Assembly (NCBI RefSeq): GCF_019320115.1
Contig: NC_089581.1
Coordinates: 69,482,485 to 69,546,484, forward strand
From: Miscanthus floridulus
Taxonomy: Eukaryota; Streptophyta; Magnoliopsida; Poales; Poaceae
DNA length: 64,000 nucleotides
Direction: 5' to 3'
Shown: positions 2,691 to 35,683 of the stretch, piece by piece
Numbering within the stretch: the first letter of the stretch is position 1
Layout: each line of letters starts with the position of its first letter
The notes under the pieces: generated by a model
Told to the model about the DNA's origin: nothing
Databases searched by the model: none
What the model saw: the letters and a program-made list of their open reading frames with translations, nothing else
Position numbers and translations under genes: made by a program

Positions 2691-3458
2691 CAGTGAAGGG
2701 GTACAACGGCTCTATTTTGTGGGGGGCTTCTATTTAAGCTCCATGGCTGGCTCTAGCTCACTCTCTTTGCCATTTGCATTGACATAGCAACCTTATGAGC
2801 TTAGCCAAAGCCCTCCCACTCATCTCCATCATTGATTCATCATCTTTGTGAGATTAAAAGTGAATCCAAGTGTATTACTTGAGTGTTTGCATCTAGAGGC
2901 ACTTGGTGTTCGTATTTTGCTGTGGGATTCGCTTGTTACTCTTGGTGGTTGCCGTCACCTAGATGGCTGGAAGCAGCGAGGATCATCGAGCAGAGGTTGG
3001 TGATTATCTCCGGCTCTGATCATGGTGATTGTGAGGGGTTCTTGACCTTTCTCCGGCGGAGAGCCAAAAGGTACTCTAGTGAATTGCTCGTGGCTTGTGT
3101 GATCCTCATCTTGTGTTGGTTGTGTGGCACCCTATTGAGGGTTTGGTGTGTGATGCCAATTAGCGTGTGAACCTCTAAGTGAGTGAATTGCCACAACGAG
3201 GACTAGCTTGTCGGCAAGCAAGTGAACCTCGGTAAAAAATCATTGTGTCATTATTTGATTCTGAGGTGATTGGTCTTCTTTGATATTGATTCTTGTGATT
3301 GATTGGTTCATTCCTCGACACGACGGTATAACCATCTTACTCTCTGTCTTTACATTACCGCAAACTAGTTATCAAGCTCTTTAGTGTAGCTAGTTGTGAG
3401 AGCTTGTTAGTTTTGTTAGTGTGGCCTTTTTAGTTAGTCTTTGAGAGCACACTAACTT

Positions 3459-4223
3459 TGTTGATGCAAAAGTGGATCTGCAAACACAAAGGGCTAATAC
3501 CCGAATCGATATCCAAAGCGTGCCAGTCGATTTGACCTGTTAATCGACAAGGATGAAGATACGAGCACTTTGGTCCTGACAACAGCGATACGCCCGGAAG
3601 TCACGACCAAGAGGTACTCACGTGGAACTCGAGAATCGCCGAAGGTCGCACTGAAGCGATGCAACTCGCCGAATCAATGAGAACTCATAAAAAGGAAAAA
3701 TATGCAAATTGACGAAGTCGCCGAAAAGTAAGTAGATGCAAATAGGAGTAAAAATTGGTTTTGATATTGATTGATATATATTACATTGCCCCTCAATCTA
3801 CATTTATACCCTGATCTAAAGAGACATAACCAAATACGACTAGGACACCAAGTCCATATCTAAGGAAACACGTGACTCTTACATGAATCATACTCTAATA
3901 AATATAGAAAAGGAAATCAACTCCTATCTATTTCCCTGTCCGCCTCAATTACGATGGAATTCTCACCGACCTCCTTTCCATCGGCATACTTCCTGTTTCA
4001 TCGGCAGTAGTTTTCAAGCCTTCCTTCATCGGCATCGACAATAACATCTCCAACCTTATCGGCAACGCCCGAGTCTAAATCAACCTTTCCATCGATCACC
4101 ACCATTCATCGGCAACCATCTTTACAAGCTGATTTTCATCGGCTGTCAGCGTATACAGTAACTTTCCTCCTGCCAATTAGCCCACTCTGATTATTTTGAC
4201 ACGTGCAAAAAACGGTGTCAACA
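3459..4223 (-). repeat. G1 3' LTR
   Basis: Begins TGTTGATG and ends GTCAACA on the plus strand, giving TG...CA ends with an inverted repeat. It is the same length as the other copy at 15020-15784. It contains five ATCGGCA motifs. Confidence 0.9.
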
Positions 4224-4236
4224 CATGCCCCCCAAT
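4224..4236 (-). promoter_or_regulatory. G1 polypurine tract
   Basis: On the minus strand a purine run, AATTGGGGGGCATG, directly precedes the 3' LTR. This is the usual place and composition for the plus-strand priming site. Confidence 0.7.
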
Positions 4237-4653
4237 TTTGGAGTATAAAACCATTAATGCTCCGAAATTTACTCCAGATAACGTTTGCCTTCGCCCAATT
4301 ACCGTAACTCATCCTCCAAGCCAAAACTTGATCTGTTATCAAATCTAATCAAATCTAGTCCTGATTCACGCACCTCAGTAAATATCGCACAATTTCCAAC
4401 CACTCTTGCCCTGATTATGGTTAAGATACCGAAACAATAATCCATCGGCAAGATCCTAACATAATAATGCCGCCATTTTCAGAATTAAAATATCCTGTAC
4501 CGAGATCTCTTCCAAGTCATGATTACTTGCCATCAAATCATCTGTACAATCCCTTGATTATCGTGCGAACAGTTACCATATCCATCTGAACCACCTCGAC
4601 CCATATGCGCGCGGCATAGAGATAAGTCCAGAATACCCCTACTCCAAGCGGCT

Positions 4654-4662
4654 TATAAATAG
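4654..4662 (+). promoter_or_regulatory. TATA box of the antisense PMD gene
   Basis: TATAAATAG sits about 170 bases before the first ATG (4825) and about 430 bases inside the 3' LTR boundary, so the promoter lies in unique internal DNA and not in the LTR. A pyrimidine-rich leader (4665-4720) follows, as expected around a plant transcription start. Confidence 0.6.
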
Positions 4663-4824
4663 ATTTCTCGGGAACGCTCGTCTTCTACTCTCAGACTCCA
4701 ATCTTTGACATTCTCTCTTTCCGGCGGCGACTCCGACGAACAACTGCACGACCTCAACCAACAAGAACTTTTCTCCAGCGTCAACCTCGAGTCTCCAGCT
4801 CGTGCCCCCGTCTACCTCAAGATA

Positions 4825-7800
4825 ATGGCAATCAACTTCGATGTCCCTGCGGTTCGTTCCACTTCCGTTACTTTTTACCTCGATTCCTCTGGTCTTTGCG
4901 AGTTCATACAGTTGGTAATTTTTTCTCTTTTTCTTTGTTCTTCGGATCCTCTAAACTTAGGAACTTCGCAACAAATTAGTTATTCCAACCGATCAGCCGC
5001 ATTTCCAATGCCTAGGACCAATGGGCAACCCAGATCCAACTTATCTGATTAATGTAGAAGTTAACAGAATCCCTTTTAGAGCCCAAAATTTCTCTCTGAA
5101 TTTATGGAAAGATACATTCCGATCTTGGCCCAAAACCACCAAAGGGTGGAAAGATTGGTACTTGAGGGTCAACAGGTCGATGCAAGTACACTGGGCAGAA
5201 CGGAAGCTAGACCAATGCATTAGGCTATCCATTGCCGATATGCAAAAGAACGAGTCAATGATGATTGCAGCTGCTTACTTCTGGTCAGACACAACAAACA
5301 CTTTTATGTTTGGACATGGCCCAGCTACTCCCACACTTGCCGATGTCGACATGCTCACTGGCTTGGACATTTCAACTGCCGATGAAGGCTCCATCTATGA
5401 CAGAAAATCTAAATATAGGGTGAATACCCGCAACATCGGTGGTTGGATGGGATACATTCAAGAATGCCAGAGGACCGGGACAGTTAACCAGACGGAACAT
5501 GCCACATTCTTGAATATGTGGTTAGAAAAATTTATCTTCTGTGGTCGATCAGTAGGACCAACCAACGCCTTCCTCCCCGCGGCTGAACTTTTGGCCAATG
5601 GTGTAAGGTTCCCTCTTGGCCGATACCTTCTGAGCTCCACTTATCATCTTCTTCATCAAGTGTCTCAGAAACTTTTGCTTGGCGAACCCATCGGCAACTT
5701 AGGAGGCCCGTGGTGGTTTATCAACATGTGGCTGAATGCCCATATGCACAAACATTTGCAATGGGACTTCTTTGCCCAACAATTCCCACAAGAAATTGCT
5801 GAAGACCACGTGCTTGGGATGAGGAATCGGCAACACGCTCACCCCTCAATTTTGGTGAAGCAATAATTGTCCTCCCTGGAACAGAGGCCAATGAAGACCA
5901 GATCGGCAGATTCTTCCAAAGCTTCTACAATGGTCTTTCTCATGATCATAGGGCCTGGGTACCTTATATTGACGAAGAAAACAGATTCCCCCTTCTTTTC
6001 AACTTTGCCGATGACACTCTGAATCAGGATAATGAACTCATGATGGCCATCATTACTCCCAGGGCAATCCTAGTAAACACATTCGGTAGTGGGAAAAACA
6101 CCAATATCACATATGAATTTTACAATCCATCGGCAGTATCCCGTCAATTGGCTTTTGGGCAACTGCCAATCAAACTTTGTTTTGCCGATGTGATCAAACC
6201 CAGAGAAACAATCGCTTGCGGAACAGATTGGAGCAGGGTAGTGCGACTCTCCCCCGATGCCGATACTACAGATGTCGATATATCCATCTGGACGCCAGCA
6301 TCTTTCATCATCGAATCATATAAGCAATGGTGGCGAGAGTGGAGGGAACAACTGTTTGCAACATCTGCTCACACATATCAGCACATGATCGACCCTGAAT
6401 ATGCCATTCCCGATGACGCAGTAAGTTTCTTTTAACTCCCTTCTGCTTTTTCCTTTCATATATCGGTAACTAACTTTCTCGTGACAGGTTAACAACCCAG
6501 CACCATCTATGAGCAAAAGTGGGAAACCCTTCGATCTTTGGCCTGTTTCCCCGATATCACCGATCGGCTACAACGCCTCCACCTTAGCTGCTTTGACTCA
6601 CCAGAAGACCCGTGCCAAGACCATCACCTCCAAGTCCAAATTGGCTACAGCTAGGGCCACTCCATTGGCTGCTGCTACAACCCTGATCAAGGCATTCAAG
6701 GTAACAACCCTATTTATTTCTACTCATGCCGATCACAAACTGTATTAACATTAATCATCAGGGTGTAAGAGCCGCTGCTGGATCATCATCGGCAATTCCT
6801 CTGACATCAAGCACCACTACATCTGACAAACCTTCAGAGGTATTCCTTTGATTTTACATTTTATCTGTTAAATATCATACCTTACACTTGTTTTGCAGCA
6901 ACAAATGGGTACATCGGCAAGCGTACCAGATGTTCAAGCTCCACAACCAACAAGTGCTGATGCCCCCCAGCCAACCGTTGCTGAGGCCCAAGCAAAGCGC
7001 AAAGCCTTAACAGATGCCGAGGCACAGCCAAAACGATAGAAGTCCATGCCGATCCCCACATCTGCCCCAACGTCATCGGTCATCATACCCCAAGGGCCAA
7101 CCACCGATGAGGCCACAGAGGATATCCCATCGGCAAGCTCAGCTAATCCTCCACACGGCATACTCCAGGCTGCTTCCTCCAACCAAGTACAGGAAATTGC
7201 CTTGAAACAGGTAAGCCGATTGACCTAGTCGATTTATAATATTCATACTTATCCTTAACTGACCTTTTTTTCTTTTTCTCAGGAACAAGACTCCCCAAAC
7301 AGCCTATTTTCCTTTGCCATTGACGTTTCTGACGATGATGGAGAGGAAACAAGTTCTTCCCTTGCACTGGGAACAATATCGGCAGAAATTAAGTCCAAGT
7401 TGGAAGCTCTCCTGGACTTGTTACAGTAGGATACCACCCAACTGGTAGATGACTCGGACCCCGCAAAGGCAATTTTCAAAACAATCCGTGGCCAGGTCCC
7501 TGCCGATGTTGAAGAAGCACTCTTCCCAGCAGCCCATTTAGAAAGCCGCCAACTGCAATATCAACGGGCTGCTCAACGCATTGCCGATAGAGCAGCTCAG
7601 GCTCAACTCAAAGAAGAGATGCTACAACTGAAACAGATTGCCGATGAGAAGCACAAGGGCATCGGCAACTTGCAGACTTTGGGCGTTGAACTTAAGCAGA
7701 AAATCTTAGATTTATCGGCAAAGAGGATGGCTCTATTGGCTGAATTGAAAGAAGTCGAGGCAGCCTTAACTCATCCCCAACAAGAAGAAAGCCAGCTACC

Positions 7801-7978
7801 CGATGCCATCAAGGCCCTTCAGCAAGAAAGAGACATCCAGGCTCGCAAAGCCTTGGCCATGAAGAAAAAACTCAAGCCTATGGAGGGTGCTGCCGATGAA
7901 GACATCAAAGAAATGAAGGAAGCCGACCAGATTCACCTGCGTGCGATATTGGCTATCCAATCCTTGTTAAACTTGTAA
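4825..7978 (+). pseudogene. Antisense spliced gene in G1: plant-mobile-domain (aminotransferase-like) protein with coiled-coil tail
   Basis: My model has six coding exons: 4825-4851, 4961-6420, 6488-6700, 6762-6839, 6899-7210 and 7283-7978. All five introns are GT...AG, short (59-109 bases), and preserve one reading frame. The ATG at 4825 is preferred because the next in-frame ATG (5021) would drop conserved sequence encoded by 4961-5020. The N-terminal about 480 residues resemble the plant mobile domain (WxxWYLRV near 5150; AAYFWSDTTNTF near 5275; ADVDMLTGLDI near 5340; GPWWFINMWLNAH near 5710). Then come a Pro/Ser/Thr/Ala-rich linker and a 200-residue Gln/Glu/Lys-rich coiled coil (7430-7970). 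Defects are one lost base in the C-run near 5845 and in-frame TAG at 7037 and 7427. PMD proteins occur both in TEs and in host silencing factors (MAIN family). The function here is unknown. Confidence 0.72.
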
Positions 7979-8064
7979 ATATTGTCTATTGCATCGGCAC
8001 TTTATGAGACATTGACATCCTTGTATAATTTTAGCCGATAGGATTGTTATCGGCACTTATACTT

Positions 8065-9996
8065 TTATGCATCCATCCAGATACTAGGGTAATATTTCTT
8101 TAAATATTTTCCATTTAATGCTCTGGGAAACACAACCCCTTCGAGGGTTTCTAGAATATATGCGTTACTAGGAACAGATTGATTTATCCGATATGGACCT
8201 TCCCAATTAGGAGACCACTTTCCAAACTTTGAACTTTTAGTCCCAATCGGTAAAATCAATTTCCAGACCAGATTTCCATCGGCAAACTCCTTTACCTTCA
8301 CCTTCTTGTCATACCATCTAGCTACTCTTTTCTTATTTTCTTCGATGCTAACTAAAGCCCTTAACCGATGACCCGCCACATCTTCTAACTCATCCTTCAT
8401 AAGAGTATCATAATCATCGGCTGTCAGCTGATTTTGAGAACGTATTTGCCTAGAGCCAGTTTTAATTTCCCAAGGCAATACTGTGTCGTGTCCATATACT
8501 AACTGATAAGGCGTTACTTTGGTTGTACCATGACATGACATCCGATATGACCACAAGGCTTCATTTAATACTATATGCCACCTCTTAGGATTTTCTTTAA
8601 TTTTGCGCTTAATGAGTTTGATGATCCCTTTGTTAGAAGCCTCATCCTGACCATTAGCTTGAGCATAATATAGAGAAGAATTTAAAACTTTAATTCCCAT
8701 ACCTACAGCAAACTCATCAAATTCTCCCGATATAAACATAGTACCCTGATCGGTAGTGATAGTTTGAGGAATACCAAATCGGTAAACAATATGCTCTTTC
8801 ACAAAATCGATCATATTAGCCGATGTCACCTTTTTTAAAGGAATTGCCTCAACCCATTTTGTGAAATAATCGATAGCAACCAGAATAAATTTATGTCCTT
8901 TGCTTGATGGCGGATAAATCTGACCGATGAGATCGATAGCCCATCCCCGGAACGGCCAAGGTTTAATTATAGGGTTCATAGCCGATGCAGGCGCTCTTTG
9001 AATATTACCAAACTTTTGACACCCCTGACATCCTTTAAAATATTTAAAACAATCTTCAAGAATAGTCGGCCAATAGTATCCATTCCTTCTGATCATCCAC
9101 TTCATCTTGAAAGCCGATTGATGCGCTCCACACACTCCTTCATGAATTTCACCCATCAAACTTTTCGATTCATCACTGCTAACACATCTGAGTAAAACTC
9201 CATCTATAGTTCGATAATATAATTCATCATCGAGGAGCACATACTTGGTAGCTTGGAACCTTATACGTGTTTCAACCTTTTTATATGGATCCTTTAAATA
9301 ATCGACAATCTCCTTTCTCCAGTCATCGGTATCGACTGTCGATGTTAGCACTTCCTGAATAGGCTGATACCCTGAAGCATGCTGAGCTAGTCGATTAGCC
9401 TCCTCATTATGTAGTCGAGAAATATGTTCAAGACGAAAATCTCTAAACCCTTTCAGCAATTGCAAACATCTTTCATAATACGAAATTAAAACTTCACTTT
9501 GGCATTCATAAATCCCAGCCAATTGATTTATAACTAGCATAGAATCAGCAAAGATTTCAACAGCATCGGCACGTATCTCCTTCAGCAATTCTAACCCTTT
9601 TATCAAGGCTTGGTATTCAGCCTGATTGTTTGTCGATGTAGCAACAATCGGCAACGAAAACTCATACTTCCTTCCTTGAGGTGAAATCAACACAATGCCG
9701 ATACCTGCTCCTTCACCACATGTGGACCCATCGAAGAAAAGTGTCCAAGGAGCAACCTCCACAGAGTCCACTGTATTACAATGCTGAGTGACAAAATCAG
9801 CCATAACTTGCCCCTTAACTGCCTTAGTCGATTCGTAACGTAGTTCAAATTCTGATAATGCTAAAATCCACTTGCCGATTCTACCACCTAATATCGGCAT
9901 CGACAGCATATACTTGACTACGTCGTCTTTGCATATGACCGTACATTCGGCAGATAACAAATAATGTCTAATTTGACACAAGAAAAGTATAAACAC
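8065..9996 (-). pseudogene. G1 pol, part 2: second RNase H and integrase
   Basis: It continues pol after the shift near 9967 (HYLLSAEC, KYMLSMPIL). The additional RNase H shows FFDGS (about 9735), TNNQAEY (about 9630) and FADSMLVINQL (about 9545), an intact D-E-D set. The integrase follows with an HHCC zinc finger (HEGVCGAHQ to CQGCQKF, 9150-9020) and a DDE core: WAIDLIG (about 8940), TTDQGT (about 8750), and NGQDEASNKG (about 8640, where relatives usually have Ala before Glu). A GPY/F-type WEGPYRI segment near 8190 ends the protein. A second RNase H is a Tat-lineage trait. No stops interrupt this 640-residue section. Confidence 0.87.
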
Positions 9997-11300
9997 AGAT
10001 ATAATTTTTTGATGGCTGAATACCTTGTCTCAGCATCCACTAATCTTCTGCTCAAATAATAAATAACACGTTCTTTCCCTTCAAATTCTTGAATAAGAGC
10101 TGAACCGATAACGGTATCATCAGTTGACAAATACAACCTGAAAGGTTTCCCGTGTTGAGGTGGAACTAGCACTAGAGGATTTGTTAAATATTTCTTAATT
10201 TCATCTAGGGCTAACTGCTGCTCAGCTCCCCATACAAATTCCTGATCGGCTTTCAATTTAAGTAATGGACTGAAAGCCTTGATCTTACCCGACAGATTAG
10301 ATATGAATCTTCTAATGAAATTAATCTTACCGATCAAAGATTGCAATTCAGTTTTATTGGCAGGAGCAACCACCTTGTTAATTGCATCAATAGACTTCCT
10401 ACTGATTTCGATGCCCCGCTGATGCACCATAAAACCCAAGAATTGACCTGCCGATACACCAAATGCACATTTATTAGGATTCATCTTCAATCCATGCTTC
10501 CTTGTGCACTCTAGTATCTTTCGTAGATCGGCTAGATGTTTTGTGATATCTCCAGACTTAATCACTACATCATCAATGTAGATCTCCACTAATGTGCCGA
10601 TGTATTCATGAAAAATAAAGTTCATAGCTCTTTGATAAGTAGCGCCGGCATTTTTCAAACCAAACGCCATGACTATCCACTCAAACAACCCTACATGACC
10701 TGGACATCTGAAAGCAGTCCTGGGAATATCTTCTTCAGCCATGATTATTTGATTGTAACCTGCATTACCATCCATGAAGCTGATAATTTGATGTCCGGCT
10801 ACAGCATCAATCAACAAATCAGCAATCAGCATTGGATAGCCATCCATCGGTGTGGCTTTGTTGAGATTCCTGAAATCAATACAAACACGAAGTTTTCCAT
10901 TTTTCTTATAAACAGGAACCACATTAGAGATCCACTCTGCATATCGACACTGCCGAATAAACTTTGCCTCAATTAATTTAGTTATTTCGGCCTTAATGTC
11001 AGGAAGTATATTAGGGTTGCATCGGCGCGCTGGCTGCTGATGTGGCCGAAATCCAGATTTGATAGGTAACCGATGTTCAACTATCGATCGGTCTAATCCA
11101 GGCATCTCAGTATAATCCCAAGCAAAACAATCTTTATACTCTTTTAACAAATCAGTTATTTGTTGCTTATACTTGGAATCTAACTTAGCACTAATAAAAG
11201 TAGGTCTTGGCCTATCGCCATCACCAATATCTACTTCTACTAAATCATCTGCTGATGTGAACCCTTGACCTAATTTTCCATCATCGGCAAACCTATCCAT
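9918..11300 (-). pseudogene. G1 pol, part 1: reverse transcriptase and RNase H
   Basis: It begins at an ATG overlapping the gag-protease stop (TAATG). It has the canonical gypsy RT order: CIDFRNLNKATP near 10890, FMDGNAGYNQI near 10780, FRCPGHVGLFEW near 10700, and the catalytic YIDD box near 10575. The RT-linked RNase H follows (RLYLSTDDTVIGSAL near 10120; YYLSRRLVDAETRY near 10050). A single-base loss near 9967 shifts the frame within the RNase H tail, after which the reading continues in the next entry. The catalytic residues I can see are intact. Confidence 0.85.
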
Positions 11301-14300
11301 TAAAACTCTTCTTCAGAACCGACTGCTTGGATCGGTGGAATTTCATAATCAGCAACTCTAAGGAACTCTTTTTCCCAAACTTCTCCTGATATGCATTTAG
11401 TTCGCTCATAAGTATCTGATTCTGCCGATGCGATGATATAAGAAGAATCACCAGGGACAAACTCAATCTTATCCCCAATCCACTGTATGAGGCATTGATG
11501 CATTGTAGAAGGAACACAACAATTAGCATGAATCCAATCCCTCCCTAGAAGCAGATTATATGCACCCTTGCCATTAATAACAAAGAACGTCGTCGGCAAG
11601 GTTTTACTGCCGATGGTCAATTCAACGCATACTGCCCCTTTAGCCGGTGACACATTGCCTTCAAAATCCTTCAGCATCATATCGGTTTTGGTCAAGTCTT
11701 GATCTCCCTTACCAAGTTTCCGATACATCACATAAGGCATAATATTAATCGCAACCCCTCCATCGATAAGTATCTTAGATACAGGCTGCCCATCAACTCT
11801 GCCTTTCACAAACAAAGCCTTAAGATGCTGTCTCTCGTCATCGGTAGGTTTCTCAAAAACAGCCATCATTGGATCTAGTGTCAACTGAGCTACTTGATCA
11901 GAGAGAACAACTTCTTCCTCATTATCAGATAGTGCCAAAAACTCCATCGGCAACATGAATACCATATTAACATCTGCCGATGGACCCTTATTTTTGTGTT
12001 TTACCTGCCACTGCTGATGACCAGACCTCTCATTGGAGGAATTTTCCTCTCGGTATAAATCCTCTTGATGCTCACGTTGCATCCTCCTTTTCTGTGTCTT
12101 TGTCAGACCCTCCGGGCACCATCGAGGAAACTTGGTTTTCCAAACCGGCTGATAACAGGTCCTAGTTGATTCTACACGGCGTATATTAGGGTCCCTGTAG
12201 AATATTTCTTCATCGGGAACTCTTGCGTTTGCCATCTCCTCAAGCTCCTCTTGATTCCTTGGAAAATATCCAGCACGTTTACCAAGCCTCTCATGTACAC
12301 TAAGTCTGCCCCCCAGCCGATCATGCACTGATGCTCTGCCTTTGATCGGCTCATTGATAAATAAACCCTGATTGCCAGGTTGAAACCTCCTTTCTGACCG
12401 ATTGACCCCATAATAACCATTGCACTCAGGGTAATTTTCAACAGTTGGCAATTTAATACCTTCTTCCCAGCAATAGATGAAAAACGGGCACCTCCAATGA
12501 TCTTTATGCCGATACCATTCTTCCTGACGTCTCTCTTCTTGCTGTTGTCGATATCGGTCCTTACGCTGACACCAACCCTCCTGCTGCCTTCGATGGGTAA
12601 TCATAATGCCAGGTCGAGGAGGGTTTTTGGAACTACTGCTTTCTCCTAGCAAACCCTTACTTTTTGCATCATCGGTAGTTATCCGATGTTGGGGATCCAC
12701 TGATGCGTTTTTCTCAGCAGCCTCTGACGTCAATACCTTGGTCTTCCCTTTGGCCTCCAACATATTTGCTAGAAAAGGGTGTTGATCAATTTTCATCGGC
12801 TTCTGGGCCTTGGAAGTACCAAACTTAATTCTCCCAGATTCAATAGCCGATTGTAACTGTTGCCTGAACACCTTGCACTCATTTGTACTGTGTGAAGTTG
12901 CATCGTGCCATTTGTAGTACAAGATCTTCTTCAACTCTTCTACCGATGGGATCACATGATTAGGTGATAGCTTAATTTGGCCCTCTTGAAGCAGAAGATC
13001 AAATATCTTGTCAGCCTTGGTGATATCAAAGGTAAACTTTTCTGGCTCTTTCTGACCAAAGAGACAAGATATCGGCTTTTTATTCTTAACCCACTCAGCT
13101 AAGCCGATAACTGGTTCTTCATCAGAATCAGAATCTCCTACTTCTTCAACAAATGATACTTTTTTACTCCAATTCTTTTTAGGTTCAAAAACCCTAGTAT
13201 CTTGATCAGAGATCCTTTGCACAAGATGACTGAGGCTTTCAAACTCCTGAGAAGCATATCTGTCTTTAAGATGTGGCAATAACCCTTGGAAAGCCAGATC
13301 GGCAAGCTGCCGATCATCCAGCACCAGGCTGTAGCACTTATTTTTTACATCTCGTAGCCTTTGCACAAAGCTTTCTACCGATTCATCATTACGCTGTCTC
13401 AATTTTACTAAATCGGTAAGCTTCTTTTCATGGATTCCAACAAAGAAATACTTATGAAATTGTTTTTCTAGATCAACCCAAGTAATAATAGAATTTGGTG
13501 GTAATGAAATGAACCATGTAAATGCCAATCCAGACAAAGATCATGAAAATAATCGAACTCTTAATTCATCTCTGCTAGCTGCCTCTCCGCATTGAATAAT
13601 GAAGCGATTGACGTGTTCCATTGTTGATGTATCATCTTGCCCAGAGAATTTAGTGAAATCTGGTATCTTGTACCGATTTGGGAGAGGAATTAAATCATAT
13701 GCAGGAGGGTATGGAGTCCGATAAGAATAAGTATTGACCTTGGGCTTTATCCCAAACTGATCCTTCATAATTTCTGTTATCTTATCGGCCCAAAAAGCAT
13801 CAGCCTCCTGCTGATGAACTGGCTGAATTTCTACAGGAGGTACCTGCTGATATCCCTCCACATATCTTTGTGGCCCACGATCTCCAGCAATCGGCATATT
13901 TGCCGTTACTTGTGGTCCATTAACCTGTTGGAAAGGATTCATCGGCTGAGCTGCTGATGCTTGATTCTGGAAACCAGCTTGCATATGACCTTGTTGAATC
14001 CCTGCAACCTGCTGATTTTGCTGAACTGTATGTTGAACAGGTAACTGTCCTAACCAACCATTATTAGAACTCATCGATACAAAACTTACCGATGGCTGGT
14101 AATTTGCTGACATTGTTGGATAATTATAACCAGCTTGAGGCATGAACTGAACCCCAGTTTGACTCATAGTAGGGGCTTTCTGCTGCATCGGCAGTAAGCT
14201 TGCCGATGGACTTGAATTGGGTGTTTGAACCAAAGGCATCTGGAAACCTCCTGGAGTTGGTTGCACAGTAGTTGCTGTGGCATATTGAGGCACTTGAGCC

Positions 14301-14977
14301 ATCGGCGAAACAGCCGATGGTATAGGAGCTTTTCCTACTGCATCAAACACTTGAGGTAACCCAGGATTGAAAGTAGATGACTCCGGAGGCATACCATATC
14401 CCCACCAATTAGCAGGAATCTGGCTATTCTGAGACACAGGGCCTGACATAGTTGATGCCGATAGATCTGTATTAAGCTGAACTCGTCCTCCTGGTAGTAC
14501 CGGATCTGATCATATCGGTGTAGATTGAATATTAGGTAAGCCTGCCGATACTAGAGGAGAAGTAACTTCTGTACCCACAATGGCCGAGGGAGCCAATGGA
14601 GTATTGACAGATGCCGGCTCTGGTTGGTGATAGGCAGGCCCAACGTAATGCGGTGATGCTTGTCCTTCTTTGAGAGTTCAAACCACAGCATTATGAATAG
14701 TATTGGACAGCACATTGGAATGATTAATCAAAGCATGATTTACTGCAGAATTAACCATCTCTTGAAGTTTACTAGGATTGGAGTCAAAGGTAACCTGCCG
14801 AGGCAATGACAAATCTTGCTTCTGGATGACTTGTCCACTCTTGTTTAGGCTAAACGATCTCAGACAAAGCTGCCTGTATTCTTCTATAGCCTTTTCCATA
14901 GCCTGCCTCTGCTCTTCCTTAAGATCTTCTTCTGATACCGTGATAATGTTCCCTGAATCAATCTCGGGATTGAACAT
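11300..14977 (-). pseudogene. G1 gag-protease
   Basis: One minus-strand frame runs from the ATG at 14977 (MFNPEIDSG) to a TAA at 11300-11302. It is interrupted by three TGA stops (14678-14680, 14510-14512, 13541-13543), each plausibly a former CGA. The first 400 residues are Gln/Pro/Met-rich. The capsid-like region (13700-13200) contains FTWFISLPP and FEQ/DLEKQFHKYF-type motifs typical of the retrotransposon gag domain. A degraded zinc-finger segment lies near 12900. The aspartic protease motif LIDGG followed by INIMPY lies near 11740-11775, where Tat elements usually have DGGSAINIMPY. The last codon overlaps the pol ATG as TAATG. Confidence 0.8.
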
Positions 14978-14994
14978 ATTGATCGGATTGATTT

Positions 14995-15012
14995 GTCCCA
15001 CCGAGCGTGCCA
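14995..15012 (-). promoter_or_regulatory. G1 primer-binding site
   Basis: On the minus strand TGGCACGCTCGGTGGGAC lies seven bases after the 5' LTR. It is one base from the TGGCACGCCCGGTGGGAC type that I recall from grass Tat-lineage gypsy elements. Confidence 0.75.
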
Positions 15013-15019
15013 AAAGATG

Positions 15020-15784
15020 TGTTGATGCAAAAATGGATCTGCAAACACAAAGGGCTAATACCCGAATCGATATCCAAAGCGTGCCAGTCGATTTGACCTG
15101 TTAATCGACAAGGATGAAGATACGAGCACTTTGGTCCTGACAACAGCGATACGCCCGAAAGTCATGACCAAGAGGTACTCACGCGGAACTCAAGAATCGC
15201 CGAAGGTCGCACTAAAGCGATGCAACTCGCCGAATCAATGAGAACTCGTAAAAAGGAAAAATATGCAAATTGACAAAGTCGCCGAAAAGTAAGTAGATGC
15301 AAATAGGAGTAAAAATTGGTTTTGATATTGATTGATATATATTACATTGCCCCTCAATCTACATTTATACCCTGATCTAAAGAGACATAACCAAATACGA
15401 CTAGGACACCAAGTCCATATCTAAGGAAACACGTGACTCTTACATGAATCATACTCTAACAAATATAGAAAAGGAAATCAACTCCTATCTATTTCCTTGT
15501 CCGCCTCAATTACGATGGAATTCTCACCGACCTCCTTTCCATTAGCATACTTCCTGTTTCATCGATAGTAGTTTTCAAGCCTTCCTTCATCGGCATCGAC
15601 AATAACATCTCCAACCTTATCGGCAACGCCCGAGTCTAAATCAACCTTTCCATCGATCACCACCATTCATCGGCAACCATCTTTACAAGCTGATTTTCAT
15701 CGGCTGTCAGCGTATACAGTAACTTTCCTCCTGCCAATTATCCCACTCTGATCATTTTGACACGTGCAAAAAATGATGTCAACA
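15020..15784 (-). repeat. G1 5' LTR
   Basis: Full-length match to 3459-4223 with about 18 substitutions and no indel seen. Most differences are C/T or G/A, as expected from deamination of methylated cytosine. It abuts the PBS on its left side (minus-strand orientation). Confidence 0.9.
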
Positions 15785-15978
15785 AACTTAGTGTAGTGAC
15801 ATAGCCATTATGTAGATAGAAACTATAGAAACTAGAATTGTGGTGGGTGGCTTACATTTTTAGTAGGCTAGCGCAACACTTGCTTCGCCTCATAATTGTC
15901 TAACTAGTTTGATTAAGTGTTGTTGTAGATTTTTTTAATAGGCTATTCATCCCCCTCTAGCCATTAGGACCTTTCAAG

Positions 15979-16033: not shown

Positions 16034-17887
16034 ATGGCTCAAATCAACAACACCAAGAAACCACCCTAATTTGATGGCTCAAACTATCCCTATTAGAAGG
16101 CTAAGATGACAACTTATATCAAGTCAATCAATAGGAAGGTTTGGAAGGTAGTAGAGACCAAGGTTGAGATTGATGATGAAGAGGCTCTCACCGCCACCAA
16201 AGAGATGTTACTTCAAAACAATGACATTGCTCTTAGTGCCATCCATGATGCTTTGGATGAGAGAACATTTAAACAAATCAAGAACATTGAGAGAGCTCAT
16301 GAGGCATGGAAGAAGTTGGAGGAATCATTTGAGGGCACTCAAGCCATAAAGGGTGCAAAGGCATACATTCTCAAGAAAAAGTTTGCAAGCTTCAAGATGA
16401 AGAAGGATGAGAGTGTGCCAGAGATGTTTCATAGGCTTCATGTGCTTATCAATGATCTCAAAGCACTTGGAGAAGAGGTGAAGGACAAGGACTTCTCCCA
16501 TAAGTTCTTGAGATGCTTACCTTCAAGATTTGGCATATTAGTCACTATTCTAGTGAGGAGTGGTTTGGACACCATGACACCAAACCAAGTGTTGGGAGAT
16601 ATAATGACCGATGATACATATAGAGATGATGATGATGAGAAGGAAGAAAAGAAGGAGAAGAAGGATGAGAAGAAGGATGACAAGAAGAAGAGTGTGGCAT
16701 TCAAGGCCACATCATCCAAGGGCAAGGCAAAGCAAGATACATCAAGTGAAGATGATGGTTCATGGGATGATGATGATGATGATGAGAAGATAGCTCTCTT
16801 TGTCAAGAGATTTGGCAAGTTCATGATGAAGGACTACCGTGCTAGAAGGAAGAAATCTTCATCTAAGAACTAGGAAGAGTTAAGAAGGTGCTTCAATCAT
16901 GGAAGCAAAGATCATCTTATTGCTCAATGTCCATACAATAGTGACAAAGATGATGACAAGAAGAACAAGAAGAAGGACAAGAAGGAAAAGAAAGAGAAGA
17001 TGGACAAGATGACATTCAAGAAGAAGAAGGGTGGTTCATATGTAGTCACTTAGGATAGTGATGCTTCCTCAAGTGATGATGATGATGATAGTGATGATAA
17101 CAAGACCACTAAGAAGAAGGTTCTTACAAGCATTGCTATCAATGAGAAGCCTTCTCTCTTTGAATCTTCATCATGCTTCATGGCTAAGGCCACTAAGGTA
17201 CAATCTTATGATGATGAAACTGATGAAGAATATGATGATGAAAATAAACATGAAAATGAAAATGATAGTGATAGTGATAATGATGAACCCACTAAAGATG
17301 AATTATTTGACATGCTAGAAGATGCTAAAGAACACTTTGATATCAAGAGAAGAGAATGCAAAAGCTTGCGTAAGGAACTAATAGCCCTTAAGCAAGCCTT
17401 TGATGAGCTCAAAGCATCTCATGAGAGGCTAGATGAAGCCCATGAGAAGCTTGGCAAGGCTCACAAGAAGTTTGAAAAAGCTCATTCCACTTTGCTTGAT
17501 GAGCAAAACAAAAAGAAGCATGTTGAGACTTGTGATGTAGGCTTAACTTGTGATATAATTGATGAATCATTATCTATGCCTATCATTGTTGCTCCCGCTA
17601 ACCCTTCTTGTAGTACTTCTACTTTCACCTCATCTAGTAGTGTTGGTTTCACTTGTGATTCCTCACTAATGGTTGAGAATGAGACCCTCAAGAAGGAGGT
17701 CAATAAGCTCACTAACACCTTAGCTAAGGCCTATGGTGGTGAGGATCGCTTGCTTATGTGCTTGGGTAGCCAAAGATCTTCTCTCTACAAAGAGGGATTG
17801 GACTATACCCCCAAGAAAGGCAAGGCAGCCTTTGCTCCTCACAAGACTAGTTTTGTGAAGAACAATGATTGGTTTTGCACTAGTTGC
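16034..17887 (+). pseudogene. SIRE A gag polyprotein, stop-ridden and truncated
   Basis: The ATG at 16034 follows the PBS by 43 bases and begins a recognisable Copia gag. An N-terminal FDGSNY-type segment precedes a UBN2-like alpha-helical capsid region (16106-16600), Lys/Asp-rich low complexity, a degraded zinc knuckle near 16890-16930 in which the second Cys is His, and a long coiled coil (17180-17720). One frame runs throughout but is broken by stops at 16067, 16094, 16871 and 17051. The frame ends in a CTSCK motif at about 17887, where it meets G2 sequence, so the C terminus is missing. It is not functional. Confidence 0.75.
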
Positions 17888-17889
17888 AA

Positions 17890-18260
17890 GCGGAGCATCG
17901 GGGGTGCTGACCGTGGTGGGGACACACCATCCGCACCTGGACTTTGCCACCATCTGTAGTGGATATGCTAAAGGCATGAGCATGGCAGACATCCAGTCGA
18001 TCGGGGAGAGCTTGCTGCCGTACGCACGGTCGGTGGCAGACCAAGTCTCCGCCGAGTGGGTGATGGACGTCCACCGTGAAGACCTAGCCAAAAGCGCGCG
18101 TGGAGAGGATGCTATAGAGCTTTTAGATGGCGTAGAGCCTGGGTCAAAGGTGAATGTCGCCCCGGTCTTGGCCGAGCCGGATGCTGTGCTGTCGGGAAGT
18201 GAGCAGCTCATGCCTTCGTCGGTTGCACCATCGTCGGATGTCGTCGGGCCAGCCCAGTAG
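17890..18260 (+). pseudogene. C-terminal fragment of the G2 antisense ORF
   Basis: The frame reads THHPHLDFATICSGYAKG and VADQVSAEWVMDVHRED, then an acidic tail ending at TAG 18258-18260. The pattern resembles C termini of grass proteins usually labelled putative gypsy-type transposase, encoded antisense to gag-pol in large grass gypsy elements. The N-terminal part is absent because the junction with SIRE A falls at about 17890. The codons used are much more GC-rich than in G1's antisense gene. Confidence 0.5.
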
Positions 18261-22030: not shown

Positions 22031-24088
22031 ATACCAACAACATCTTGAGCTTTACTTCTATGATGATGATCCAAGCCTTGAGCACCGCTTTCAATGATGT
22101 CATGAAGAGAAGTGCCAAAAAGACAAGGAAGTCATTGTGAGGCTTGTCGCCATCCTTCATGACAACCCATACTCACAACATCTTAGGAGTGTGGGCCAGG
22201 CTGAACACCTTGAGGACTATCATGTCACACTAAACCTTGACCAAAGGCTAGACCAGAGAACATACAACGTGCCATCAAATTTAGAGGTGGCTGCTGTTTG
22301 GATCGAGGGAAGCAAACTCTTTAGTCAGTTCCAAAATAGTGTTGTCCTTCATGGGAAAGATAGAAGCAGACATGGCATCCGCTCATATAATGGATGTTAT
22401 GATGCTCTTTCATACCCTCTATTCTTCCCTAAGGGTGAGCTTGGGTGGCACATGGATATTCCAAACAAAGGAGTTAGTATGGAAGAAGTCATCGAGTACC
22501 ATGCCCTGTAGAAGGCTCGTAGTGGGTCAGAAGAAGAAACAAGTTTGTTATTCTTCTTATTTAATACTTCACATACATGTACCTCAATGGTTTTTCTACA
22601 AACAACTCTAATTCATGGCTATTTTTGTAGACTCCCCTAGCACACTATGTGTGTCTGTGCGTGACTACTACTGCTACAAATTTTAGATGCGTCCAGGAAT
22701 ATTTAACCCCCATACTTTATGGCAAGCGTCTGTTCCAATAGTTTGCTGTTGACACATACATCAAGATTGAGAGTTCTCGATTAGATTATATACTCAACCA
22801 TCAAGATGATATTAGGGCTGACCTCTACCAAGGATTGGTTGATAGCCTACATGCTGGTGAAGGTAGAGCAGAAGCTGTTGGAAACCGGATAGTGATGCCT
22901 TCATCATTTATTGGAGGCCCACATGACATGAGGCGTCGGTACATGGACGCCATGGCTTTGGTATGGAGGTTTGGTAAACCGGACATCTTTCTCACTATGA
23001 CATGTAACCCAAACTGGGATGAGATCAAGTGCGAACTCTACCCTGGCCAGACGTCACAGGATCATCCAGATCTCGTTGTTCGGTCTTTAGAGCGAAACTA
23101 CAAGAGCTAAAGGATAAGCTACTAAAAAAGGATATCCTTGGAAAGGTGCGAGCACATGTTTATGTTGTGGAGTTCTAGAAGAGGGGTCTGCCACATGCAC
23201 ATTTTTTGCTAATCATGGATAGGAAGTACAAGATCACATGTCTAGAGCAGTATGATCGTCTCATCTCAGCTGAGCACCCGAACAAGAAGAAGTACCCAGT
23301 CTTGTACAAAATGGTTATCAAACATATGATGCATGGCCCTTGCGAAGTGCTTAATCATGATTGTCCATGCACAAAGGGTCATGATTCCTACAAGAACCGT
23401 TACCCTAGACCTTTTTGTGATGTCACAATATAGGGCAAGGATTCATATCCAGTTTACAGATGGCGTGAAGATGGCCGAAAAGAAAAAGTTCGTGGACATG
23501 ATCTTGACAATAGATGGGTCATGCCTTACAACCCGTATCTCCTCCGTCTATTCAACTGCCACATCAATGTTGAGGCATGTGGGAGCATCAAGGCTGTCAA
23601 GTATCTATTTTAAATACATTTATAAGGGTCATGACCGGGCATCTGTGGCTGTGAGAGAGGCTAACAAGGAGGATAGTGAAGGGAACGTTGATGAGATCAA
23701 GCAGTACAAAGATGCTAGATGGGTAACACCCCTAGAAGCCTTATGGAGGATATATGGGTTTGATTTGAGTGATAGGTACCCTACTATTTTGTCCTTACAG
23801 CTACATCTTCTAGACATGCACATGGTGTCATTTCATCGACGTGAGGGGATTCGACGAGTGCTTGATCGTCCAGGTGCTGACAAGTCAATGCTTCTAGCAT
23901 ACTTTGAGAAGAATAGGACAGATGAAACAACTCAAAGTATATTGCACCGGGACTTCCCTGAGTTCTATACATGGCAAGCATAGGGCAAAGTTTGACAAAA
24001 GAGGGTACGCCATGATACATTATGATAGATTGGAAGAATCGTGGCTACCAATCCAGCCGAGGGGGAGCGTTACTACCTTAGGGTTCTC
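22031..24088 (+). pseudogene. Helitron Rep domain, N-terminal half of RepHel
   Basis: Recognisable segments in order are ELYFYDDDPSLEHRF (22045), the Helitron-like N domain (22137-22508: LHGKDRSRHGIRSYNG, SYPLFFPKGELGWH), FLTMTCNPNWDEI (22990-23030), the HUH relaxase motif LPHAHFLLIMD (23188-23220), HMMHGPC (23323), KYIYKGHDRASVAV (23610-23650), RRYPTI/LQLHLLDMH (23780-23825) and GERYYLRVLL (24067-24090). The HUH histidines are intact. The frame is broken by several shifts and stops, for example a TAG just before the HUH motif and a base insertion near 23611. It ends at the SIRE B junction. Confidence 0.75.
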
Positions 24089-25562
24089 CTAGTTGGGTTT
24101 TGGTGATTAATGACAATACGTGATTACTGTGACTAACGTGTGTTTTGTAGAGGCAATTAAGTTAGGTCACGGTAATGGAGATCGATTGGGCTATCATGAT
24201 GGTCATGCCCCTACGATGGAAATCGTTTCAGTTTTCAAAGGATGGACGACAAGGTTAATGATGGACTAGTTCTAAGTGTCAATTGAAGTTGGAGTGACAC
24301 TTAGAGTAGTTTAGGACTTTGTTTTTCCTTTGGCCATACTATTAAGGGGGGTACGGACGGGTAGCTTGACCTAGGTGAGTCTAGTGGGTTAGGTGTGGTG
24401 CACACTTGCTAAAACTAGTGCTAGGTAGCTCTAAAATAGTCCTTAGATCCAATGGAGCAAACTTCATTCACATATGATCGAGAGTTGGAAGTAAATGGAG
24501 GGTCAAATACTGACCGAACGCTGGCATCAGTGTGATCGGACGCTGGCTCAGAGTTTGGTCAGTTCATTTGATCAAGTTGAAGTCGTTTGGATGCGACCGG
24601 ACGCTGAGAAGTGAAGTGACCGGATGCTAAAGGCCAGCGTCTGGTCGACATCAGTAAGGTTCCAGTGAGGGTAAATTGCTATCGGACACGTCCGGTCAAT
24701 GCTGACCGGACGCTGGCCAGCGTCCGGTCACACTATAAACACTGGGTTTCAGGGTGAACTGACTGGCACATTCGGTCAACATGACCGGAGCATCCGGTCA
24801 CCCCGCAAAGGCACATAACGGTTCATTTTTTAGCCCATGTTATAAATACCACCTCCATTCGTGTGTGGGGGTACTTTTGCTTATTCCAACACCTGAGAAA
24901 CACGTTTGAGAGTGCCAAGAAGAGCAAGGTCCTAGTGAGATAATTGAGATTTGAGAATCCCAAAGGGAGCCCTCATTAGTGAGATCAAGAGTAGCAAAGT
25001 GTGCATCCACCCTTCTCATTAGGCTTGTCGTGGTCAAGTGAGAGTTCGTGCTTGTTACTCTTGGTGATCGCCATCACCTAGATGACTTGGTGGTGATTGG
25101 GAGTTTGGTGATCATCCGGCGGAGCTTGTGGGTGACCCAACTCAAGTTGTGAGCGGTTGTGGGTGATTCACCGCGACGAAGTGTCAAAGAATTAACCCGT
25201 AGAGAGCACTTGATCCTTGCGTGGATCAAGGGGGAGCTACACCCTTGCACAGGCGCTCCAACGAGGACTAGTGGAGAGTGGCGACTCTCTGATACTTCGG
25301 CAAAACATCGCCGCATTCCTTCTCCTCTCTTTACTTTAAGCATTTACTTTGAGCAATTCAATACTTGTCTTTTATATTCCTAGAATTGCCATGCTAGAGT
25401 AGGATTAGAACTCAGGGTGCTAAACTTTTGTGTGTTAGATCAATAGAAACACTTTCTAGGCATAAGGGGTTAATTGGGCTAACCATAGGATTTGATTATT
25501 GCAAAGAATTTTGTAATTAGCCCAATTCACCCCCCCCCCTCTTGGGCATCTTGATCCTTTCA
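24089..25562 (+). repeat. SIRE B 5' LTR (5' end deleted)
   Basis: Matches 35684-37100 from CTAGTTGGGTTTTGGTG onward but lacks about the first 20 bases (TGAAAGCGTC...) present in the other copy. It ends CCTTTCA at 25562. It is longer than the 3' copy by a block of palindromic CCGGACG repeats near 24640-24740. Confidence 0.85.
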
Positions 25563-25564
25563 AT

Positions 25565-25577
25565 TGGTATTGGAGCC
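25565..25577 (+). promoter_or_regulatory. SIRE B primer-binding site
   Basis: TGGTATTGGAGCC, a two-base variant of the TGGTATCAGAGCC initiator-tRNA site, two bases after the LTR. Confidence 0.75.
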
Positions 25578-25615
25578 TCATGCTCACGAATTTAGGCTTA
25601 ACCGCCTAGAGCAAG

Positions 25616-28021
25616 ATGTCTCACGGGGGTGGACCTCCTCCTATCTTTGAGGGAGATAATTTTTCTTATTGGAAAATTCGCATGGAGGCGTATTTAGAAG
25701 CTCTAGATGTTGGTATTCTTAGAGCCATCTCACATGGCTTCCCAAAACCTCAGGATGCTACTCACCTACAAGGCGATGAGGTGAACTACGAGAAGTGGAA
25801 TGCAAAGGCTTGAAACACCATCTTTAGAGGACTTTGCAAAGATGTGTTCAATCGGGTGAGGAACCACAAAGATGCCCATGCACTATGGTCGGACGTTTGT
25901 GCGCTCCATGAGGGAACTAAGAGTAAGCATGAGGAACGCTATCATCTTGTCATGAAAAAGCTCAACTCTTTTGAAATGCTTCCTAAAGAATGTGCTAATG
26001 AGATGTATTCACGTTTGAATGTTCTTGTAGAGGAAGTCAATGGGCTTGGACTCACTCAAATGCAACCATCCGATGTTGTAAGAAAAATTTTGAGTGTCCT
26101 CCCCATAAATAAATATGGGCATATTGTGACCGTGCTTCATCAAGGTGATCTTTCCACCGCTACACCAACACAAATCTTGGGAAAGATCAATGCTCATGAG
26201 ATGTACATGCACATCACGCCACAAGATGGCTCATCCTCTATCAATAAGAAAGATAAGGACTTAGCATTCAAAGCTAGCCAAGAGAAGGGCAAAGCTAGAC
26301 TTGAGTATGAGAACTCAAGTGATGATGAAGTTGATGATGAAAGTCTTGCTCTCATGGTGAAAAAGACCACCAAGATGCTAAAGAAGCTCAACAAGAGTGG
26401 CATCAAGTTTGATGGCAAGAAGAAGAAGTTCTTCACTAGCTCTAGAAGGAAGCCAATCTCCGAAATGGATTGCTTCAATTATGGAGAACTTGGTCATCTA
26501 GCACACCAATGCACTAAGCCCAAGAAAGAAAAGTTCAAGAACAAATACAAGGGCAAGAAAGATGACTCAAGTAATGAAGAAGAAGAAGAGAAGAAGAAGA
26601 ACAAGCCATACAAGAAGAGAGATGGCAAGAAGAAGGACTTCCACAAGAAGAAGAAGAGTGGAAAGGCATACATTGTCGGTGATTGGCTCACGGACATTGA
26701 TTTATTTAGTGCCTCATCCGATGATGATAGTGACAACGAGAAGGTGGCCGCAATTGTTATCAACTCTTCATCATCTTCATCGCCACCACCGCCATCATCC
26801 TCTATACACCTATGCCTTATGGCCAAGGGTGACCGCAAGGTATCTAACAATGATGATAGTAGTGATGATGAGCATGCTAGTGATGATGATAGCGATAGTG
26901 ATGATGATGAATATGAATCACCTTCTTATGATGATCTTGCTAGATTGCTAAAACAATACACTAAGATCATTATAAAAACTAGAGCTAAAAATGAAAAGCT
27001 AGAAGCTAAAAATGATTCTCTTTTAGCCAAATGTGATATAGCGGAAAAGGCTAGTGTTGAGCTTAAAGAAGCAAATGATGCTATATCATCCAAACTCAAG
27101 GAGCTCAAATCTTCTAAGAAAGAGCTTAAAGAAAAACATGATAAACTTGAGAGGATACATAATGAGCTCATCACTAGCCACAACAAGCTAAGAGAAGAAT
27201 ATATTACTCTTAAGGTTAATCATGATAATCTTGTTATTGCTCAAGAATTCTTATCCAATGAGCCACATGATGCTACTAACGATGTTGTTAAGATTGATAT
27301 AGCTACATCATGTGATGACTTGATTATTGAGAGCATTGAGCAAAGTTCTAGTAGCAAGGGCAAGCAAGTGGTTGAAGTCGATGATTATGGTAAGTTTGTC
27401 AAGCTCAAGAGTGACAATGAAAAGCTTAAGAAAGATCTTGAAGAACTCAAAACCACCAAGTCTATTGTGCTAGAAACTATTGTTCATGATGATGGTTTGA
27501 TCCTTGAGAATAAGAAGCTCAAAGATAAGAACAAGAAGCTCAAGGAAGAGAAAAACAATGATGCTCTCAAGGAAGAAAACAAGAAGCTCAAGTTGGAGAA
27601 AGAGCATCTTAAGATTGGATTGAGCAAGTTCACTAGAGGCAAGCATCTTCAAAGTGAGCTACTAATGAATACCATCATGAAGATGGATAGAAGTGGCATT
27701 GGGTACTTGGCAAACCAAGAGAAGAAGGCTCAAGCTCAACAACAACATAAGTCCAAGCCAAAGCCAAAGAGATGTTTTGAGTGTGGACAAGAAGGCCACT
27801 TTACTCATGAGTGCCAAACTCCACCACCATAACCCTTGCCCAAGCATGCTAGACCTTTTCCCTTCAATGCTCACTACATGCTTAGAAAGGATTCTAGTGG
27901 AAAGATGAAAGTCATGTTCTTAGGTCCTCCCAACAAGAATAGGCTTAAGAAAATTTGGGTTGCAAAGTCACTTGTTGAGAAGGTGAAGGGCCCTCAACAA
28001 GTTTGGGTTCCTAAAGCTTGA
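25616..28021 (+). pseudogene. SIRE B gag
   Basis: The ATG at 25616 starts MSHGGGPPPIFEGDNFSYW, a typical Copia gag N terminus, followed by a UBN2-like region (25850-26250). Two zinc knuckles are visible. The first (about 26470-26511) reads CFNYGELGHLAHQC with the second Cys replaced by Tyr. The second (about 27775-27816) reads CFECGQEGHFTHEC and is intact. Between them are Lys-rich and Asp/Ser-rich low-complexity tracts and a 250-residue coiled coil (26950-27660). Stops fall at 25811 (TGA), 27830 (TAA) and 28019 (TGA). A large gag with a coiled coil is typical of Sireviruses. Confidence 0.82.
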
Positions 28022-28035
28022 TCTCTTGTGTGTAG

Positions 28036-35272: not shown

Positions 35273-35669
35273 CTTAGTAGTTCATTATCTAGTACATTTG
35301 GAGTTTTATGTGTGATACACTTTTATGCATTCGTCATGTGTTTACTTTTATGCATTAAACTATATCTTTGTGATAGTGATATCTATGTGATCGTGATATG
35401 TGACATGTGAGCTCTCTACTTTGAATCATTTATATGTCATATCACTTGTGCTATGCTCTTTTGCTTTGCTTCTACGTTTTACTTCGATGCAAATGAGCTT
35501 TATTACTTATACTCATGCTTATTTCATATCTTTTGAGTACATCACATTGGCTTGGGTCATATAAGCTTGCCTAATACTTTTGTTCTTATTGCCAAAAGCT
35601 TATATGAACCAAGCATGTTAAAAACCTCATCTCTTTCACATACTCGAGATGGTATTGTCATCAATCACC

Positions 35670-35683
35670 AAAAAGGGGGAGAT
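35670..35683 (+). promoter_or_regulatory. SIRE B polypurine tract
   Basis: AAAAAGGGGGAGA directly before the 3' LTR. A second similar run (AAAGGGGGAGAGGG) occurs near 35222-35238, and repeated polypurine runs upstream of the 3' LTR are known in Sireviruses. Confidence 0.75.

Follow-up and report, generated by a model that had tools for sequence, protein, structure and literature searches.

Why should one seven-letter word be spelled 54 times along a single retrotransposon, and hardly at all in the DNA around it? The question is raised by element G1, at positions 3459 to 15784 of a 64,000-nucleotide stretch of Miscanthus floridulus DNA (NCBI RefSeq assembly GCF_019320115.1, contig NC_089581.1, forward-strand positions 69,482,485 to 69,546,484; hereafter "the window"). 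G1, by the content and order of its domains a Tat-type Ty3/Gypsy element, is bounded by long terminal repeats (LTRs) and carries gag-pol on its minus strand and, antisense to it, a gene with a plant mobile domain (PMD). The word is ATCGGCA (TGCCGAT on the other strand), and all results concern one copy of G1 in one window.

A heptamer concentrated in G1

Within this window the heptamer is enriched in G1 and confined to it. A direct count finds 54 exact copies in the element (30 plus, 24 minus) and two, at 20052 and 56542, in the remaining 51.7 kb, where 5.1 are expected. The original prediction had given about 54 in 12.3 kb and about two elsewhere, which proves exact, and its chance level of about 1.5 is close to the 1.37 expected under a first-order Markov model and to the mean of 1.38 (maximum 7) over 500 dinucleotide-preserving shuffles of G1. 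No other 7-mer is more frequent in the element; the enrichment is about 39-fold, well above the 5-fold that the same prediction had set as its lower limit, and the commonest 7-mer of any kind reached at most 19 copies in each of the 500 shuffles. A direct count finds none in G2 (24089-37077), a copia element unrelated to G1. The claimed specificity to G1 thus holds against the other genes and transposable elements inside the 64-kb window, the comparison on which it was assessed.

The copies had been said to lie in LTRs, untranslated DNA, intron, exons, and gag-pol alike, and the counts by region bear this out: LTRs 8, left LTR to 4960 1, PMD exons 16, presumed intron 6, the gap between PMD gene and pol 2, gag-pol stretches 20, and leader 1. 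Stretches treated as coding hold 36 of the 54. Per kilobase, the density runs from 6.5 in the left LTR through 1.4 (to 4960), 6.8 in the N-terminal PMD exons and 6.0 in the presumed intron to 10.9 in the C-terminal PMD exon and 22.5 in the 89-bp gap (two sites), and then through 3.1 (integrase/RNase H), 2.4 (reverse transcriptase), 3.1 (gag/protease), 4.1 (N-terminal side of gag), and 2.0 (leader) to 3.9 in the right LTR.

When the 54 copies are aligned on the heptamer, little else is common to them. The base before it is a pyrimidine in 45 (p 4e-7), the base after it is weakly biased (25 A, 14 G, 11 T, 4 C), and every other flank position carries at most 0.25 bit. Six copies form three left-right LTR pairs with mutually copied flanks; the other 48 stand alone. 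Because the flanks are independent, spread by duplication of a longer unit is ruled out, and since only the preceding pyrimidine is common, both orientations occur, and five of the six codon phases are used (orientations and differing frames were both part of the prediction), neither duplication nor codon bias can be the origin. Outside the LTRs the orientation is balanced (22 plus, 24 minus); in the left LTR all five copies are plus. Helical phasing or regular spacing was not seen (R ≤0.20 over six periods, coefficient of variation of spacing 1.20), nor was a preference for inverted pairing, with 10 direct and 7 inverted among 17 neighbour pairs within 60 bp.

Shorter or altered derivatives had also been called abundant, and they are, within limits. 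One-mismatch variants of the C-to-T/G-to-A kind number 42 against 7.9 expected (ATTGGCA alone among them is weak, with 5 against 2.9), and ATCGGCT occurs 19 times against 1.2; the other 16 one-mismatch variants together are at chance level (23 against 21.2). The excess fits either cytosine-deamination decay of an older, larger set of heptamers or a degenerate site, and fits both equally well. Intact heptamers and C-to-T/G-to-A variants stand at 24:5 in 4961-8067 and at 20:31 in 8068-14509 (p 1.8e-4). Outside the motif, the observed/expected CpG ratio is 0.43-0.68 in gene bodies and leader and 1.09-1.19 in the LTRs and 4223-4960; ATCGGCW holds 24 of the 92 CpGs of 4961-7978 while taking 5.6% of the length.

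Alignment of the two LTRs (764 bp on the left, 765 bp on the right, TGTTG...CAACA) shows 18 differing sites, of which 17 are transitions. Two of the five left-LTR heptamers differ from their right-LTR partners, each through two adjacent transitions: the partners of 3980 and 4000 are ATTAGCA and ATCGATA. Four of the 18 LTR differences therefore fall inside two 7-bp motif copies (3980-4006), events too few for significance.

The heptamer inside coding sequence

It is within the genes that the pattern is most telling, as synonymous codons are used for the heptamer far beyond chance. The coding pieces contain 35 copies, against a summed mean of 4.2 in shuffles of synonymous codons that keep both protein and codon use (eight pieces, one of which, the leader open reading frame [ORF], has no heptamer). 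Ile-Gly is spelled ATCGGC in 8 of 15 cases, Ala-Asp GCCGAT in 18 of 27, and Ser-Ala TCGGCA in 7 of 18, whereas codon use outside the motif, taken as products of codon frequencies, predicts about 5%, 16%, and 4%.

A second comparison considers permitted places, that is, places in the seven open coding pieces where the amino acids allow the heptamer in any of six phases; site 5826, in a frame-switch zone, is excluded. There are 61 such places. The exact heptamer fills 35 (57%), 10 are one C-to-T/G-to-A step off, 7 read ATCGGCT, and 9 are further off, so that 52 of the 61 hold the heptamer, ATCGGCT, or a single-step form. For comparison, the 767 heptamers, among them ATCGGCA itself, that contain four G/C and a CpG and have no fewer than 15 places fill a mean of 2.5% of these. 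ATCGGCA ranks second among them by filled fraction; the first is CCGATGA (15/26), whose reverse complement overlaps ATCGGCA, and the twelve top listed control heptamers have ATCGG, TCGGC, or CATCG in common with it. Random heptamers (237) fill a mean of 4.3% and at most 28%, permuted ones (188) a mean of 3.7% and at most 31%, and seven other ORFs of the window, a small control, have none of their 14 permitted places filled. With 35 of 61 places filled against such low controls, G1 has used most of the room that its proteins leave, and we take the 57% as a strong sign of selection acting on the DNA itself within genes. The pattern looks like such selection, written through synonymous codons. 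The PMD pieces are the most complete, with 15 of 17 places filled against 20 of 44 in gag-pol (p 0.003), and the C-terminal PMD exon has all six.

Did placing the word cost the proteins anything? Relatives were taken as the best 120 of 405 for the PMD protein, 56 of 56 for gag-protease, and the best 120 of 1672 for the integrase stretch. Named gag-protease relatives include Panicum, Sorghum, and Oryza proteins; among the integrase-stretch matches listed, Oryza and Lolium lead the named ones and dicots are more distant. In relatives at 60-85% identity, residues at motif places and other residues agree at 0.90 vs 0.70 (PMD_a), 0.84 vs 0.72 (gag/protease), and 0.63 vs 0.68 (PMD_b); below 60% the values are 0.49 vs 0.52 and 0.30 vs 0.38 for the PMD pieces and 0.53 vs 0.45 for gag/protease. 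As motif-place residues agree about as well as other residues or better, the motif was for the most part placed without altering the protein.

The relatives also hint, suggestively and with modest ranks, that sister families carry the same word. At three gag/protease places the residues that the motif demands, DRQ, NRH/YRH, and LPM, are found in 4/6, 8/10, and 8/9 relatives at 60-78% identity and in 0/27, 0/21, and 1/19 below 60%. Motif-compatible residues per 1000, over four pieces, are 20.7 in close, 21.1 in sister, and 12.5 in distant relatives, with 19.0 in G1 itself. Among 8170 heptamers ranked against distant relatives, ATCGGCA stands at 139 (sisters), 17 (close), and 74 (G1) by scaled difference and at 441, 157, and 354 by plain ratio, rankings in which composition and shared ancestry are uncontrolled. 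Related DNA was not confirmed among viral and prokaryote contigs, where little plant DNA is expected.

Candidate readers of the word

A protein binding site held by selection is the best reading of a word that is short, strand-symmetric, independent of coding, and specific to one element. We infer selection as the cause and binding by a protein as its target, and we consider this part of the reading probable.

The antisense gene named in the prediction is real as to its domain (PF10536, E 9.3e-23, in the first PMD open stretch). It lies between pol and the left LTR, which is the 3' LTR in the sense of gag-pol. A TATA-like TATAAATA stands ahead of it at 4654-4661, and a candidate start is the ATG at 4825 (MAINFDVPA...), to be compared with MAVNFTVPEV and MAISFIVPEV in the relatives P0003 and P0006. 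No plus-strand open stretch of at least 90 amino acids is listed in the presumed intron (6436-7429), and the C-terminal exon looks coiled-coil-like, judged by eye only. The frame switches within the overlap 5803-5866, where relative P0001 (95% identity over 88% of the query in one search, 91% in another) reads through; the G1 copy therefore looks damaged, with intact relatives in existence. The closest organism-named relative among the matches listed is a Saccharum hybrid protein (90% identity over 56% of the query). The region upstream of the gene, 4223-4960, has an observed/expected CpG ratio of 1.19, LTR-like and unlike the gene bodies, and this ratio suggests a little-methylated promoter there.

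The PMD gene is the sole gene found in G1 beyond gag-pol, and the word is most complete in it; for these two reasons its protein is the likeliest reader, although we put the odds on it at about even. We infer this reader, and anti-silencing as the effect of its reading, by argument from the sequence and from known systems, and the effect is the more tentative of the two. In full, YATCGGCA (about 8 bp, with T tolerated at the last position) would be a dispersed double-stranded DNA binding site, fixed at most affordable places by selection among retrotransposon copies. Point mutations, in genes mostly synonymous ones, would have created the sites one at a time, without any expansion of repeats. 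The PMD protein that the element encodes in antisense would then cover the element's DNA, LTR and PMD gene included, and keep copies of the family open or expressed, while the sequence specificity of the reading would spare the host. To this reading as a whole, a dispersed site fixed by selection, read by the element's own PMD protein with anti-silencing as the outcome, we give a probability of about 0.5. More speculatively, one might describe a second code along the whole retrotransposon, in which most of the places that the proteins permit spell the recognition word of its own PMD protein; the genes would then serve at the same time as an array of binding sites by which all copies of the family are marked as self and kept expressed. 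Modules of PMD protein and DNA motif have reportedly been proposed, in a preprint, to act against Polycomb.

The nearest parallel, already drawn in the original prediction, is that of the Arabidopsis VANDAL elements and their VANC proteins. The idea stands: in both cases a transposable element has many copies of a short motif of its own (in G1, 54 copies vs 2 in the rest of the window) together with a potential reader gene. The anatomy does not, as VANC21 sites (YAGTATTAY) and VANC6 sites (AGTTGTCC/AGTTGTAC) are described as tandem repeats of noncoding DNA (PMC5735166, PMC10398659), whereas in G1, an LTR retrotransposon that has a PMD gene in place of VANC, the copies are scattered, with flanks independent of one another, and occur in exons too. 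G1 contains neither of the known VANC targets YAGTATTAY and AGTTGTMC (0 each). If the reading is right, G1 would be an exon-embedded LTR-retrotransposon counterpart of VANC/VANDAL, LTR elements, like VANDAL elements, would have evolved a sequence-specific recognition of self, and Gypsy-borne PMD proteins would have a function. The permitted-places test can be applied to any library of transposable elements in search of other such words.

The gene itself has precedents. Clades PMD-A1 and A2 are described as exclusively Gypsy-borne, and anti-silencing use has been speculated for PMDs captured by MULEs (PMC5418596); G1 likewise encodes PF10536 inside a Gypsy element. Extra antisense ORFs of plant Gypsy elements resemble that of G1 in position between pol and 3' LTR, in the PMD domain, and in an additional RNase H ahead of integrase (PMC7264820, PMC11963269, PMC6317226); the passages on them in these papers mention no saturating heptamer, and two of the papers term the role of such genes undetermined or unknown (PMC7264820, PMC11963269). 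An additional RNase H between RNase H and integrase is given as a feature of Ogre and Retand, with PMD in 57% of Ogre and Transposase_28 in 23% of Retand elements (PMC6317226). Retand is further reported to combine TRP28 with tandem repeats, and its antisense ORFs, whose domain is TRP28, may bind DNA (PMC11963269); none of the seven pieces of G1 matched TRP28 in Pfam. Among host proteins, MAIN/MAIL1/PP7L PMD complexes are tied to the promoter DNA motif DOWN, which reads CATGCAGTTT in the MORC1 promoter (PMC7156037, PMC9899485). Here too a short DNA motif and the control of silencing go together with PMD proteins; unlike in G1, the genes are those of the host, the motif is a promoter motif, and the passages concerned leave direct binding open. 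A search of the open PMC literature, which leaves subscription papers and bioRxiv preprints aside, returned no report of a saturating word in a retrotransposon, and the letters ATCGGCA gave a single match there, a software paper.

Several observations weigh against reading by the PMD protein or against selection for retention. In the 738 bp from the left LTR to 4960, where the PMD promoter presumably lies, there is a single site, and the density of heptamers in the LTR is no higher than in the PMD exons. As two of the five LTR motif pairs have diverged, sites were not retained after insertion. In relatives, conservation at motif places does not exceed that at motif-free permitted places (p 0.45 and 0.45 in the nearer classes, 0.73 in the distant one); this stricter comparison covers four of the seven pieces, drops alignments below 80 residues and places with fewer than four relatives, and keeps 16, 21, and 17 motif places against 10, 13, and 12 controls. 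The permitted-places test and the comparison of PMD with gag-pol were devised after the data had been seen. On the protein side, a search with a profile built from 36 PMD relatives yielded no solved structure at E up to 1, and two AlphaFold models of P0001 were too poor for use (mean predicted local distance difference test scores, 44.7 and 47.3). The contact of the PMD complex with chromatin is called unknown in PMC9899485, and the DOWN motif CATGCAGTTT was not found in G1.

Which other explanations survive? The foremost is that the reader of the heptamer is a host DNA-binding protein (a chromatin opener or transcription factor), which the element exploits through the sites it has accumulated, and that the PMD protein has another function. 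The data indicate selection on DNA without naming the reader, and the five U3-side LTR sites, clustered in one orientation, resemble a promoter response element. Yet the rest of the window, in which a host-type gene and further elements lie, has fewer copies than expected, the sites run throughout the gag, reverse transcriptase, integrase, and PMD stretches, wider than a promoter needs, and saturation peaks in the PMD gene itself; we consider a host reader unlikely, if worth keeping in mind.

A neutral drive toward ATCGGCA through biased mutation, repair, or template switching, with protein selection removing the harmful copies, is improbable. A strong drive limited in this way would also saturate the permitted places, but it should convert neighbouring words, and those outside the C-to-T/G-to-A forms and ATCGGCT are not depleted. 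Heptamers are no more closely packed in presumably less constrained DNA (left LTR, presumed intron, PMD upstream region) than in the C-terminal PMD exon, and the differing LTR pairs, each the motif against a C-to-T/G-to-A form, are easier to read as loss, a direction that two copies do not prove. Bacterial DNA uptake sequences are short words repeated genome-wide, genes included, and driven by uptake bias; LTR elements are not known to have such a process.

Retroelement RNAs do carry signals, and a packaging, export, or small-RNA target signal in the genomic RNA would be one more explanation, a very improbable one because the orientation is balanced outside the LTRs and both orientations occur in both of the oppositely stranded genes. 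An ordinary artefact is next to excluded: G+C and CpG content do vary along G1, but codon bias, base composition, and tandem or segmental duplication (codon bias and a tandem repeat had already been discounted in the prediction) are rejected by the dinucleotide and synonymous-codon shuffles, the independent flanks, the control heptamers, and the control ORFs (14 places).

The element and its neighbours

The features of G1 are collected below. Its LTRs, short target-site duplication (TSD), and order of gag, protease, reverse transcriptase, RNase H, and integrase are as in Tat-type Ty3/Gypsy elements, and gag-pol is split by stops or frame switches into several open stretches. The additional RNase H is RVT_3 (residues 99-218 of the 8068-10029 stretch), which follows RT_RNaseH and precedes Integrase_H2C2 and rve.

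Features of element G1 in window coordinates, with the start and strand of each exact heptamer
Feature	Coordinates	Strand	Details
TSD AACTT, left copy	3454..3458		
Left LTR (3' LTR in gag-pol sense)	3459..4222	-	heptamers 3980, 4000, 4028, 4058, 4108, all plus; ATCGGCT at 4138
LTR heptamer cluster, presumed U3 side in gag-pol sense	3980..4114	+	
Upstream of and into PMD gene	4223..4960	+	one heptamer, 4444+
PMD-coding exons, two open stretches in different frames	4961..6435	+	heptamers 5233-, 5338-, 5377-, 5690+, 5826+, 5902+, 6006-, 6129+, 6183-, 6258-
Presumed PMD-gene intron(s)	6436..7429	+	heptamers 6727-, 6788+, 6913+, 7047-, 7129+, 7378+
C-terminal PMD exon	7430..7978	+	heptamers 7501-, 7582-, 7639-, 7661+, 7714+, 7891-
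Gap, PMD gene to pol (89 bp)	7979..8067		heptamers 7993+, 8049+
RNase H (RVT_3) and integrase stretch	8068..10029	-	Pfam RVT_3, Integrase_H2C2, rve; heptamers 8278+, 9565+, 9647+, 9696-, 9873-, 9893+
Reverse transcriptase stretch	9921..11312	-	RVT_1; heptamers 10449-, 10595-, 11283+
Gag and protease stretch	11303..13540	-	Retrotrans_gag, gag-asp_proteas; heptamers 11423-, 11608-, 11946+, 11975-, 12507-, 13298+, 13308-
Open stretch on N-terminal side of gag	13544..14509	-	no Pfam match; heptamers 13890+, 14187+, 14201-, 14456-
Leader	14510..15019	-	heptamer 14543-
Right LTR (5' LTR in gag-pol sense)	15020..15784	-	heptamers 15589+, 15619+, 15669+
TSD AACTT, right copy	15785..15789		

G2 is a copia element by its LTR pairs and its integrase and pre-integrase domains, and it has a repeated motif of its own, approximately TGACCGGACGCTGG (GACCGGA 27 times and CGGACGC 20 times in the window). 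Patches of this motif lie at 24537-24793, 31773-31934, and 36127-36306, and also at 2220-2549; direct and inverted copies cluster in the LTRs and one internal patch, a layout nearer to that of VANC targets than G1's. The open stretches flanking G2, 23330-23983 and 37338-37916, look helicase-like (PIF1 at E 2.7e-21 on the right, no Pfam match on the left), and G2 may have inserted into a helitron-type element. An open MATH-BTB-BACK gene of the BPM/SPOP type occupies 39421-40527. Adjoining G1, at 16097-17959, is a second copia-type gag (PF14223), followed by a stretch with long acidic runs.

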